Shown here: positions 45,029 through 58,591 of the stretch, in pieces
Layout of the letters: every line of letters starts with the position of its first letter
Position numbering within the stretch: the stretch's first letter is position 1
Source of the DNA: Gammaproteobacteria bacterium
Lineage (GTDB): Bacteria; Pseudomonadota; Gammaproteobacteria; GCA-001735895
Direction: 5' to 3'
Assembly: GCA_024225395.1 (NCBI GenBank)
Contig: JAAEMR010000033.1
Coordinates: 1 to 61,684, forward strand
Length of the DNA stretch: 61,684 bases
Notes under the pieces: model-generated
What the model was told of the DNA's origin: nothing
Databases searched by the model: none
The model's input: only the letters and a program-made list of their open reading frames with translations
Position numbers and translations under genes: made by a program

Positions 45029-45385
45029 TTATTCAGAATCTAAATTTTGGCCAGCCTGATCGGCCCATAAACGTTCAATATCATAAAATTCCCGCGTTTC
45101 AGGTAACATCACATGAACTACAATATTACCCAGATCGACGAGCACCCAGTCACCGATATCTTCACCTTCAACGCCCAGTGGAGGAGTATTTACCTGCTTG
45201 CTGACATCAATAACGGATTGAGCAATCGACTTAACATGCCGATTAGAATTACCACTGGCAAAAACCATACGGTCGGTAAATCCACTGACTCCTTCCAGGT
45301 TAATATGGTTTATATTTTCAGCTTTCAGATCGTCCATCGCCTGTATCACCAGATCCTGTAGCTCTTCGGTCTTCATTTCAGTCAT
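45029..45385 (-). CDS. rsfS: Ribosomal silencing factor RsfS
   Basis: A 118-residue protein that binds L14 on the 50S subunit and blocks subunit joining during starvation. The family signature MVFASGNSNRHVKSIAQSVID and the tryptophan motif DIGDWVLVDLGNIVVHVMLPETREFYDIERLW are both present. It lies between nadD and rlmH, the conserved order. The start could be at the fourth codon (MKTEELQ). Confidence 0.95.
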   Translation of the reverse strand: MTEMKTEELQDLVIQAMDDLKAENINHINLEGVSGFTDRMVFASGNSNRHVKSIAQSVIDVSKQVNTPPLGVEGEDIGDWVLVDLGNIVVHVMLPETREFYDIERLWADQAGQNLDSE

Positions 45386-45399
45386 TAAATACTCTTTAC

Positions 45400-47380: not shown

Positions 47381-48409
47381 TCAGCTATAAGACAGACTAT
47401 GCACGTCAGCTAGACCTGAGAAAGAATTCACAAGTTGCTGGAGTGTTAACCAGTCTGCGTCAACATATAAAGGTTGCTGTTGCCCTTTATTAATGCGATC
47501 TAATGTAGCACAGCTTTGTAAAAATCGCTCTATCCGGGAATAAGAAAGACGAGATAATGCGCTGCTGTACAGACGTTGTTTACTTTTCCATATACGCAAT
47601 GATTGCCAGGTTGATGCATTGAGTTGATTATTTTGCTGTGCCTGTTTTAACTGAAGTAACACTTCAATCGCACTTTGCAATGCATACAAAATTTGAATGG
47701 GCTGAATACCCTCCTGTCGCAAACCCTGTAATATTTTCACCGCTCGAGCCGGTTTACCGGCCAGGCAGGCATCCACCAGAAGAAAATGGGTGTATCGTGA
47801 ACTACGGGAAATACTCTGATTTATCTGTTCAAGATTGAGCGCTGCATTCGGTTCAAATGCCAGGGCCAGCTTCTCCAGCTCCTGATCTGTTGCCAGTAAA
47901 TTCCCTTCGGTTAAATCAGCCAGATACATGGCGGCCTGATGATCCAGACTAATCCCCTTTGACAGCGCCCGCTGACTAGTCCATCCAGCCAGTTCATTAG
48001 GGTAAACCGGTTTTAGTTCTATAGATTCACCCGCTTTATTAATCTTCTTTAACCAGGCACTATTTTTTGTGGCCATATCGAGCTTTGGCATGACCAGAAT
48101 AAAAACAGTATCTTCAGGTAAAAGCTCGCAGATCTGACCAATAAATTTAGCTCCTACCTGCCCGGGTTTGTTACTGGAAAAGCGAATCACATGGCATTTT
48201 TTCTCACTAAAAAGAGAAAGACTCTGACTATCTTCAAGCAAACCATTCCAGTCAAAGCCAGCTTCAACCTGATGACTGATTATTTCTTCAAAACCGGATT
48301 CCTTCAGAGCTTTGCGCGCGGCATCCAGCCAGTCCCTGACTAATAGCGGTTCATCACTGGACAACAAATAAACAGGAGCGGCTGAAGATTTTAACGATGC
48401 AGGTAACAT
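47381..48409 (-). CDS. holA: DNA polymerase III delta subunit
   Basis: A 342-residue clamp-loader delta subunit, which opens the beta sliding clamp. The N-terminal PVYLLSSDEPLLVRDWLDAARKAL and the FSEKKCHVIRF and GNLLATDQELEKLAL segments match HolA; no Walker motif is expected. In most gammaproteobacteria holA follows leuS-lptE directly, but here a regulatory RNA and four accessory genes come between lptE (53956) and holA. Confidence 0.93.
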   Translation of the reverse strand: MLPASLKSSAAPVYLLSSDEPLLVRDWLDAARKALKESGFEEIISHQVEAGFDWNGLLEDSQSLSLFSEKKCHVIRFSSNKPGQVGAKFIGQICELLPEDTVFILVMPKLDMATKNSAWLKKINKAGESIELKPVYPNELAGWTSQRALSKGISLDHQAAMYLADLTEGNLLATDQELEKLALAFEPNAALNLEQINQSISRSSRYTHFLLVDACLAGKPARAVKILQGLRQEGIQPIQILYALQSAIEVLLQLKQAQQNNQLNASTWQSLRIWKSKQRLYSSALSRLSYSRIERFLQSCATLDRINKGQQQPLYVDADWLTLQQLVNSFSGLADVHSLSYS

Positions 48410-48525
48410 AAATAGAGTTACAACAAATAGCAGAATGCTAACACATAGACGAGCTGGAATGAGCCTTCATCTTTGTAGATTATAAAATGGCAGCATAATT
48501 AATTTGTGAAAAGAAGCCAGAAAAG

Positions 48526-48556
48526 AAAAAACCCTCAACCATTGCTGGTTGAGGGT
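48526..48556 (-). terminator. Intrinsic terminator of the candidate sRNA
   Basis: A perfect 10-base stem (ACCCTCAACC 48531-48540, GGTTGAGGGT 48547-48556) with a 6-base loop is followed on the minus strand by thymines (adenines at 48526-48530). It lies 117 bases before holA, so it terminates something that is not holA, supporting a separate small transcript. Confidence 0.93.
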
Positions 48557-48693
48557 CTAATAATCTGCTGGCAATCCCTTTAGCGTGCATCCTGCAAGGC
48601 TTCCATCCTAAACGTGATAACCTGCTAATCGCTTGTCCAGCTATAGGCTATCCCCTAACTCACGTATTCCTTTGTCTAACTCCCTTTGGACAC
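48526..48693 (-). ncRNA. Candidate CsrB/RsmY/RsmZ-type regulatory RNA
   Basis: About 168 bases with no coding frame. Eight GGA motifs occur on the minus strand (plus-strand TCC at 48575, 48590, 48602, 48606, 48636, 48651, 48668 and 48681), where about two would be expected. Several lie in loops: TGCA-GGA-TGCA (48586-48596), TAGG-GGATAG-CCTA (48644-48657), and TGTC...GACA around AGGGAG. ACGTGA (minus strand, 48660-48665) can pair with TCACGT (48612-48617), enclosing the central part. Such RNAs titrate CsrA/RsmA. The 5' end near 48693 is inferred from TATTAT at 48700-48705. It ends in a strong terminator and has a GacA-like box upstream. Confidence 0.72.
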
Positions 48694-48748
48694 CCTTCAA
48701 TAATACCCCGATTAAATAATTTTCATATCAGCATATAACGATTTATTT

Positions 48749-48766
48749 TGTAGGAAAAATCTTACA
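48749..48766. promoter_or_regulatory. GacA-box-like site (TGTAGG-N6-CTTACA)
   Basis: An 18-base near-palindrome, TGTAGGAAAAATCTTACA, matches the upstream activating sequence known for GacA targets (TGTAAG-N6-CTTACA) at 11 of 12 positions. Its centre is about 64 bases upstream of the inferred sRNA start, similar to the spacing at rsmY and rsmZ in Pseudomonas. A recognisable -35 box is missing, as expected for an activator-dependent promoter. It lies just downstream of the permease stop codon. Confidence 0.72.
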
Positions 48767-48807: not shown

Positions 48808-50019
48808 TTAGATATCTCTTAAACCATCTGATGGCTCAATGCGAGAAGCTCTTATCCCCCCCAGAATAGCGGCTGTTGCGGCAACAAACATCGTCAGACC
48901 TAAAGCCCAGAAAAAATGCTGAGGCAGCAGGTAACAGATGACCTGCTCAATTTCCAGATTCGGTGCCAGTAATTGATTAATGGTTTGTTCGGCAACCAGG
49001 TAAATTAACACCGCCAGTAACCAGCCCAGCAAACCGGTATACATGGATTGTAATACCGGAAATAAAATGATTTTCCCTCCCTGAAACCCCACCAGCCGAA
49101 GAATACTTAATTCTTTTCGCTTGCGATCAACATTGGCCCACAGACTAGCTCCGAGAGAAAACGAGAACCCTACAGCTCCGACGCAGGCTATTATCCAGAA
49201 AATAATACTCAGATTTTGATCGATAGATTGAACCGTTTTTATTTCGGCAATATTGGCTTTAACATTGATGCCTTCCTGTTCCAGCTCATTGACCAGCTTT
49301 TCCACATTTCCAATCGATCGGGCGTACATTCTGAACGATGGATAAACTCTTAACGCTTCAGTATTAACATTTCCACTCCAGTTCAATTCAGCTACTGCTC
49401 GCCCATCTTTAAAGCTTTCTGTGGCCAGTAATAAATCCAGGCTAACAAACGCAACATTACGACTCATAACATGTGCCGGAGCAACATCGATAACCTGCAG
49501 GTCAATATGAACACGTTCTCTTTTACCTTTAAACTGCCGCACCAGGCTCCCGTCAATTCGGTCTCCCTGCTCGATATTTAATTTATTAGCGATAGTGTCA
49601 CTTAAAATGACCTGGTAAAAACCTTGCGGTTTTGTTTCCAGGTCTTTAAGTAGCGGGTCGTTAGCAGCTGTGGCAAACAACTCGGTGGAATATATACGCC
49701 CGGCTTTATCACTTTTGAGTTGAATCGTTGCTGCTAAGGAACGGGTCTTTGGAATTATAAACGCAATATCTTTTCGCCCGGCATATTCATCAAACCATGT
49801 CTGCTCATAACGACCGCTACCAACAGCTCGAATTTCTCTATTCGAGGGATTTTCAATCAATCCGGTAATCATCGAGCTGACAATACCAAATTTCAGACCG
49901 AACAGAATCATCATGGGAGCCAGCACAGAAGCGAGGGCCAGCACAAAACAACCGGACATTCTCCATTCGTGACTGTAATCTCTGAAACTTAAACTGATGA
50001 TTTTATTAAACTGATTCAT
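48808..50019 (-). CDS. FtsX/MacB-like ABC permease (TagS-like candidate)
   Basis: A 403-residue permease with the MacB/LolCE/FtsX layout: one transmembrane helix near the N-terminus (about 22-45), a periplasmic domain of roughly 220 residues, and three helices at the C-terminus (about 275-300, 325-345 and 370-392). The ending ILGGIRASRIEPSDGLRDI matches the PxxxLR coupling tail of this superfamily. With the ABC ATPase upstream it should form a mechanotransmission-type complex rather than a classical importer. The vWA partner nearby suggests TagS, but the family also includes LolC/E and others. A repeat element lies between it and the ATPase gene. Confidence 0.8.
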   Translation of the reverse strand: MNQFNKIISLSFRDYSHEWRMSGCFVLALASVLAPMMILFGLKFGIVSSMITGLIENPSNREIRAVGSGRYEQTWFDEYAGRKDIAFIIPKTRSLAATIQLKSDKAGRIYSTELFATAANDPLLKDLETKPQGFYQVILSDTIANKLNIEQGDRIDGSLVRQFKGKRERVHIDLQVIDVAPAHVMSRNVAFVSLDLLLATESFKDGRAVAELNWSGNVNTEALRVYPSFRMYARSIGNVEKLVNELEQEGINVKANIAEIKTVQSIDQNLSIIFWIIACVGAVGFSFSLGASLWANVDRKRKELSILRLVGFQGGKIILFPVLQSMYTGLLGWLLAVLIYLVAEQTINQLLAPNLEIEQVICYLLPQHFFWALGLTMFVAATAAILGGIRASRIEPSDGLRDI

Positions 50020-57036: not shown

Positions 57037-57114
57037 GCTCCCTACTCCCTACTCCCTACTCCCCGTTTCCTGCACCCTGCTCCCCGTTTCCTGCTCCCTA
57101 CTCCCTGCTCCTTG
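57037..57114. repeat. Degenerate CTCCCTACTCCCTGCTC tandem repeat
   Basis: About 78 bases of an imperfect 7-mer tandem repeat (CTCCCTA/CTCCCTG) interspersed with CTCCCCGTTTCCTG and CACCCTG variants. It lies between leuS and lnt and overlaps the 3' end of lnt, supplying its stop codon (57098-57100) and the last residues RSRE. Strand asymmetry (pyrimidine-only on the plus strand) could allow unusual DNA or RNA structures. Confidence 0.88.
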
Positions 57115-58591
57115 TTTTAAACTTCAAACTCTTAACTCGAATCATCAGAATCGATAAGCCGAAAATTAAAAAAGCCAGCCAGGATTGAATTTTAGCAAAA
57201 TACAGGAAAGGTGTAGAACCCGTCCGACCCTGAATATCAGCCGTTAATGTCTGAGCCTTAAACTGCTCAGTGGTATCGATAATTGAGCCTTTATAATCAA
57301 TAAATGCACTTTGCCCTGTGTTTGTCGATCTGACCATCGGGCGTGCAGTTTCCAGCGATCTCATTTGTGCAATTTCAAGATGCTGATGCGGAGCCAGTGA
57401 ATCACCAAACCAGGCATCATTACTGGTATTCACCAGAATGTTGGCTGCCGGTAAATCACGATTGATATCCCGGCTAAAGACATCTTCATAACAAATAGAC
57501 ACCCCCAGTTTCACGCCATTAACAGACATCATGATTTGCTCATCAGGGCCTGGTTTCATGTCTGACATTGGAATACGGATATAACTCTTCATAAATGAGA
57601 GTAACTGGCGAAACGGGTAATACTCACCAAAAGGCACCAGGTGACGTTTATGATAAACGCCCTGATTATCACCCATCAAAATCATGCTGTTGTAATATTC
57701 ACGTTTCATCCAGTCTGATACGACGATACCGGTCAGTAAGTTACTATTATTTTCACTGGCCTGCATCGACATGGGTACAAGAATATCATCCTGCAAATCT
57801 TCTGAACGCCCGGGAATAGCCACTTCCGGCCACACGACCAGGTCACTGCCCCAGTTTAATTTTGTAGCATCCCAGTAAGTATCCAGAATTTCTTGGCGGT
57901 CATCACGTCGCCATTTCATTTCCTGCGGAATATTGCCCTGTATCATGGTGATATTAAGGGGCTTACCCGATTCTTTAGTCCAGTCAATTTGCTTTAAGCC
58001 ATATCCGGCAAAGCCAATGAGACAGATCATGATGAGACTGACTGGATTTTTTTGCTGTACCAACAGTAGCAGTAAGGAAATCACAATCGACAAACTGCCC
58101 ACGCCATAAACGCCCAGTAACGGGGCAAAACCGGACAACGGAGAGTCAATATGAGCATAACCCGTACTCAACCAGGGAAAGCCTGTTAACACCCAGCCTT
58201 TTAACCATTCCATGGAAAACCAGAGCAAAGGAAGAGTCCACACCGCCCAGCGAGCCGGGTAAAGAATCAGTATTTTTTTATAAAGGTACAGTGCCGTTCC
58301 GGTAAACACTGATAATGTCAGGATCATCAACCCGGTCAGCCCACCGGCAACCAGCGGCGGGGCATGACCGTAAACGTGCAGGCTATTGTAAATCCAGTTA
58401 ACCCCAAATCCGAAATAACCTAAACCATAAATCCAGCCCAATATAAAAGCCTGTTTACTCTGGTTAATAAATGACAGCTGGAATATCAATATGGCTGGCG
58501 AAAGAATAACGATTGGCCAGAAATTAAAGGGGGAAAATGCCAATGGCATACTCGCGCCTGCAGCGAAAGCTATTAGCAAGTGAACTAACAT
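57098..58591 (-). CDS. lnt: Apolipoprotein N-acyltransferase
   Basis: A 497-residue inner-membrane enzyme that adds the third acyl chain to lipoproteins. After about six transmembrane helices, the nitrilase-like periplasmic domain shows the triad: glutamate in WPEVAIPG, lysine in YHKRHLVPFGEYYPF and cysteine in GVSICYEDVF. A C-terminal helix ends the protein, but its last four residues (RSRE) come from the tandem repeat, so the tail may be altered from the ancestral form. It precedes or follows corC as usual, 3 bases apart. Confidence 0.95.
   Translation of the reverse strand: MLVHLLIAFAAGASMPLAFSPFNFWPIVILSPAILIFQLSFINQSKQAFILGWIYGLGYFGFGVNWIYNSLHVYGHAPPLVAGGLTGLMILTLSVFTGTALYLYKKILILYPARWAVWTLPLLWFSMEWLKGWVLTGFPWLSTGYAHIDSPLSGFAPLLGVYGVGSLSIVISLLLLLVQQKNPVSLIMICLIGFAGYGLKQIDWTKESGKPLNITMIQGNIPQEMKWRRDDRQEILDTYWDATKLNWGSDLVVWPEVAIPGRSEDLQDDILVPMSMQASENNSNLLTGIVVSDWMKREYYNSMILMGDNQGVYHKRHLVPFGEYYPFRQLLSFMKSYIRIPMSDMKPGPDEQIMMSVNGVKLGVSICYEDVFSRDINRDLPAANILVNTSNDAWFGDSLAPHQHLEIAQMRSLETARPMVRSTNTGQSAFIDYKGSIIDTTEQFKAQTLTADIQGRTGSTPFLYFAKIQSWLAFLIFGLSILMIRVKSLKFKTRSRE

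Follow-up and report, generated by a model that had tools for sequence, protein, structure and literature searches.

A GGA-rich interval between a permease gene and holA

The 61,684-nt stretch of DNA analyzed here (the window) carries, on the minus strand, an ABC permease gene and holA, with a predicted Gac/Rsm-type small RNA gene, its GacA box, a -10 element and an intrinsic terminator lying between them (Table 1). The original prediction had described eight GGA motifs within about 120 bases of a non-coding interval; eight were counted on the minus strand, with their first G at positions 48683, 48670, 48653, 48638, 48608, 48604, 48592 and 48577, giving a span of 109 nt (48683 to 48575). The perfect 10-base terminator stem that it had reported is present as CCCTCAACCA-GCAA-TGGTTGAGGG at positions 48532-48555 and is followed by a T6 tract. 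The box likewise was found as described, with one mismatch to TGTAAG-N6-CTTACA and its center ~64 nt upstream of the RNA start, which we place at ~48693 on the basis of the TATTAT -10 element. With respect to coding capacity, the RNA stretch has 1-nt indels among close relatives, without a conserved reading frame.

A density of eight GGA motifs per 120 nt was reached by only two clusters in the whole window. The second and densest, at positions 57040-57130 on the minus strand upstream of a leuS-like gene, is an imperfect GGGAGTA/GGGAGCAGG/GAAACGGGGAGCAGG simple repeat (GGGAGTA/GGGAGCA) and not an Rsm RNA.

Table 1. Coordinates of the genes, regulatory elements and conserved helices
Feature	Position	Strand	Details
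FtsX-like (LolC/E-related) ABC permease gene	48808..50019	-	upstream neighbor; Pfam PF02687
GacA box TGTAAG-ATTTTT-CCTACA (upstream activating sequence)	48749..48766	-	exact TGTARG-N6-CYTACA
-10 element TATTAT	48700..48705	-	aligns with TATAAT/TATACT-like elements of homologues
Predicted small RNA gene, Gac/Rsm type	48526..48693	-	~168 nt; eight GGA motifs; predicted ends
Helix 1, 5´ hairpin TGTC...AGGGAG...GACA	48673..48692	-	GGA in loop; double-sided changes in 5/6 pairs; 78.5% of cells paired
Helix 2, long-range ACGTGA/TCACGT	48612..48665	-	encloses central GGAs; double-sided changes in 4/5 pairs; 93.2% of cells paired
Helix 3, AGG-ATGGAAG-CCT hairpin	48597..48609	-	GGA in loop; double-sided changes in 2/4 pairs; 91.7% of cells paired
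Helix 4, TGCA-GGA-TGCA hairpin (GC-AGGAN-GC core)	48586..48596	-	GGA in loop; core G-C pair retained in 23/24 and C-G pair in 24/24 sequences
Intrinsic terminator	48526..48555	-	perfect 10-bp stem and T tract
holA, DNA polymerase III delta subunit	47381..48409	-	downstream neighbor; TIGR01128, 257.9 bits (cut-off 80)
Predicted second Gac/Rsm-type RNA	L035:1271-1433 = G000:C90 ~45226-45388	-	between ttcA and a prolyl-aminopeptidase-like gene

Searches with known RNA families

Rfam searches of the window at gathering thresholds reached no family, CsrB (RF00018) and CsrC (RF00084) included, and the matches seen under relaxed conditions, to NsiR1, ctRNA_p42d and Spot 42, were discarded as terminator-like chance matches. 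For 20 loci with homologues, no Rfam family was matched at E 0.1. The RsmY model (RF00195) gave no match in the window or in its own genome, and in 369 genomes of the class it gave nothing relevant except one true RsmY in another family (L130, 81.5 bits). With the PrrB/RsmZ model (RF00166), none of the genomes of 55 relatives had a match above the cut-off, and the locus of the window RNA was not among the weak matches. The expectation that homology searches may miss this RNA was thus borne out for Rfam, RsmY, PrrB/RsmZ and CsrB included. In a literature search weighted to openly accessible papers, no Rsm RNA turned up at either holA or ttcA.

Conservation of the locus in the taxonomic family

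Each of the three genera in the taxonomic family shows the order permease gene, RNA, holA. Of 41 family genomes, 30 gave a match to a covariance model (R1) built from the alignment of homologous RNAs, and several of these 30 were outside the model-building set; the window RNA scored 86.8 bits, its sequence being itself part of the model. In the sampled genomes of the class outside the family, no credible R1 match was found, and three weak matches there (25-28 bits) were rejected as matches to a terminator, with neither a box nor a GGA cluster next to them. When DNA similarity was searched over relatives, matches reached the genus only.

Both the GGA motifs and the box are kept in related genomes at the same position, and it is because of this conservation that the feature stands beyond chance. 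The exact box was found in 22 of 25 other aligned homologues and was degenerate or absent in three (L053, L054 and L055). One further homologue (L009/L051, G004:C194) has a gap of several hundred N over the 5´ half of the RNA and the promoter, such that it is only half readable.

The closest named records by HolA are SI039_bin4 (93% identical) and NIOZ-UU29 (69%), both uncultured Gammaproteobacteria metagenome assemblies, and we read their isolate names as indicating a marine lineage. As judged from these searches, the RNA family is missing from Rfam and is apparently confined to a single uncultured group of marine bacteria.

A conserved fold with compensatory changes

Covariation was computed on 24 aligned RNAs with a structure of five helices, over which 87.6% of the cells were paired. 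Double-sided changes were observed in 17 of 25 pairs, with 72 such cells compared with 28.9 in shuffles, and the covariation score was 0.375, compared with 0.232 for shuffles and at most 0.136 for slid controls. Compensatory changes were present in five helices. The terminator helix had double-sided changes in 5 of 7 counted pairs (95.2% of cells paired), and the long-range ACGTGA/TCACGT pairing that had been proposed corresponds to helix 2, one of the well-supported elements (Table 1). Helix 3 takes the form AGGC-AGGAN-GCCT in most relatives. Helix 4 gives little covariation because it barely varies.

Of the hairpins originally proposed to hold GGA motifs in their loops, TGTC/GACA and TGCA/TGCA belong to the conserved fold, whereas TAGG-GGATAG-CCTA occurs only in the window RNA and its closest relatives, most relatives being without that segment. 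Three hairpins with a GGA in the loop are conserved, by covariation or by invariant stems, but are weak in the single-sequence fold. The window RNA was more stable than shuffles (z = -3.95), with much of this contributed by the terminator. The minimum-energy fold of the window sequence alone did not contain all of the named hairpins, and constraining the fold to the conserved helices cost ~10 kcal/mol in stability relative to the predicted minimum, so the placement of the GGAs in loops is less certain in this species than in its relatives. The idea that folding would leave the GGAs exposed held in the relatives, where they were more clearly unpaired, but not in the window sequence, in which GGA unpairedness was 0.52 compared with an average of 0.51 for G/A.

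Regulatory partners and a second RNA

The genome encodes the partners expected for an RNA of this kind. There is one CsrA (114.9 bits, cut-off 73), in which L4 and R44, residues required for RNA binding in E. coli, are both present. One response regulator has UvrY/SirA/GacA as its top NCBIfam model (257 bits, below the equivalog cut-off of 280), and its gene is directly followed by uvrC, the usual arrangement. A BarA/GacS-like hybrid kinase of 911 aa, with sCache_4, HisKA, HATPase, receiver (REC) and Hpt domains, has BarA as its best model (530 bits, below the NCBIfam equivalog cut-off of 890), and a cysM-like gene lies near the kinase gene. The csrA gene is found behind alaS and an aspartate kinase gene and before tRNA-Ser, as in Marinomonas mediterranea, where it likewise precedes tRNAs (PMC8523701). 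The presence of CsrA, GacA and GacS/BarA, like the anatomy of the RNA and its conservation with compensatory changes, is directly evident from the sequence.

Exact TGTARG-N6-CYTACA sites are found at only three positions in the whole 4.45-Mb genome. The second of these (G000:C90:45456) precedes a second GGA-rich, terminator-ended RNA, which contains AAGGATGT, and RNAs of this type occupy the same ttcA slot throughout the family. Some genomes of genus g3 keep the ttcA-slot promoter but have only one to three GGAs there, most having been lost. The third exact box (L036:1501-1518, G000:C132:16645-16662), with a GGDEF/EAL-type gene on one side and a gene for a small membrane protein on the other, faced no GGA-rich RNA and possibly marks a direct protein-gene target of GacA.

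The ttcA-slot RNA bears on whether the holA-slot RNA might instead be a cis-acting 5´ leader or attenuator of holA, whose terminator would set read-through and whose GGAs, when bound by CsrA, would modulate it. Consistent with such a leader, holA starts ~117 nt past the RNA end on the same strand, and the order is conserved. However, the box, GGA repeats and terminator recur in the second RNA, which lies by ttcA with no holA after it; in a member of the genus (G007), the sequence before holA differs and the gene is retained without the RNA; and relatives show poor conservation of the stretch from the terminator to the start of holA. We therefore consider a holA leader very unlikely, and note that some read-through into holA may remain.

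GacA boxes and the promoter half-site

Allowing up to two mismatches, the box pattern had four matches in the window compared with 2.6 expected, and so is weak evidence by itself. Exact boxes occur ~2 times per genome across 40 family genomes, compared with ~0.25 for a reversed control pattern. We gathered 72 distinct exact boxes from these genomes. A terminator-ended stretch carrying five or more GGA motifs lies in front of 35 of them, compared with 5 of the 1570 positions used as controls in those loci.

Exact boxes are present in 22 other homologues of the holA type. Every one of these boxes ends 64-67 nt before the -10 element and is followed by a YTAC half-site 22-23 bp past its own YTAC. 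When RNA-facing boxes of both RNA types were considered, a YTAC or YGAC half-site was present at 34 of 35. For YTAC alone, the counts were 28 of 36 for oriented boxes (the 36 include the back face of one box) and 3 of 108 for other orientations. The sole exception among the 35 RNA-facing boxes is that of the window RNA, for which the half-site is absent and the box end is 43 nt before the -10 element, 23 bp closer. Its promoter has the appearance of having lost one unit through a deletion between the repeated CCTACA sequences.

These observations raise the possibility, which we put forward only tentatively, that the GacA-driven Rsm promoters of the family have a two-part operator composed of the 18-bp box and a YTACA/YGACA half-site two helical turns (22-23 bp) downstream, with the window RNA as a natural variant from which 23 bp have been lost, which would bring its one box closer to the promoter and probably alter its response to GacA. 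In the RsmY promoter of L130 (Pseudomonas-type), a CTAC half-site lies 22 bp past the YTAC of the box, and on the strength of this one RsmY promoter examined, the two-part rule may be general. A 'UAS2' named without detail in earlier work (PMC4950607) may or may not correspond to the downstream half-site.

The promoter also speaks to the origin of the RNA. It lies directly downstream of the permease gene on the same strand, as would be expected if it were the 3´ untranslated end of the permease mRNA with its terminator, a CsrA-binding RNA perhaps released by processing, as has been proposed for RsmW of Pseudomonas aeruginosa (PMC4950607). The holA-slot RNA, however, has its own conserved box and -10 element at fixed spacing inside the intergenic region, in contrast to RsmW, for which the GacA site is weak and distant (PMC4950607), and we judge derivation from the permease mRNA to be very unlikely. 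Least probable is that the GGAs and box arose by chance in intergenic DNA that needs only a terminator. The mismatched box pattern is not rare and the window holds a repeat with even more GGAs, but this reading is refuted by the conservation, the compensatory changes, the excess of exact boxes and the way in which these are paired with GGA-rich RNAs.

Discussion

Taken together, the conserved GGAs, hairpins, box and terminator in the same position and the partners encoded in the genome support the CsrA/RsmA-sequestering function originally predicted. We conclude that the RNA at holA is almost certainly an independently transcribed Gac/Rsm (Csr)-type RNA that would be activated by GacA and titrate CsrA, acting with the second RNA at ttcA. 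When the GacS/GacA sensor system is on, phosphorylated GacA would bind the box and direct transcription from the -10 element, and the ~168-nt transcript would stop at the intrinsic terminator. With its repeated GGAs, several of them in hairpin loops, the RNA could bind several CsrA dimers, which then would be withdrawn from target mRNAs, and the RNA of the same kind from the ttcA locus would act alongside. We infer the transcription, GacA dependence, CsrA binding and set of target mRNAs by analogy with the well-studied class (PMC2375449, PMC4950607, PMC8523701).

The predicted RNA resembles RsmY, RsmX and RsmZ of Pseudomonas in its size, its several loop GGAs, its TGTAAG-N6-CTTACA-type box and its intrinsic terminator, but has no sequence or model similarity to them and sits between the permease gene and holA. 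The box is centered ~64 nt before the predicted start here and ~87 nt before it in relatives, compared with -75 for Pseudomonas rsmY and -196 for rsmZ (PMC4950607). The same architecture is found for the CsrB/CsrC-like RNAs of Marinomonas mediterranea, again two in number, whose prediction drew on a GacA box, AGGA/ANGGA motifs and a terminator; in that species, RNA-seq demonstrated their expression and its dependence on the kinase/regulator pair (PMC8523701). CsrR1 and CsrR2 of Alcanivorax, compared by their description, also are lineage-specific CsrA-related RNAs of marine gammaproteobacteria with several unpaired GGAs but are encoded at other loci, in the hfq leader and beside a ferredoxin gene (PMC9788540). 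We regard the holA-slot RNA as a new lineage-specific family within a well-known kind of regulator.

The alignment with its covariation provides the basis for a new Rfam family, and the half-site at a fixed distance of two turns offers a testable rule by which GacA-driven RNA promoters may be found or ranked in other lineages. For the organisms themselves, these findings would place a complete switch of GacS/GacA, CsrA and two RNAs in an uncultured marine gammaproteobacterial family in which Rfam-based annotation sees none.
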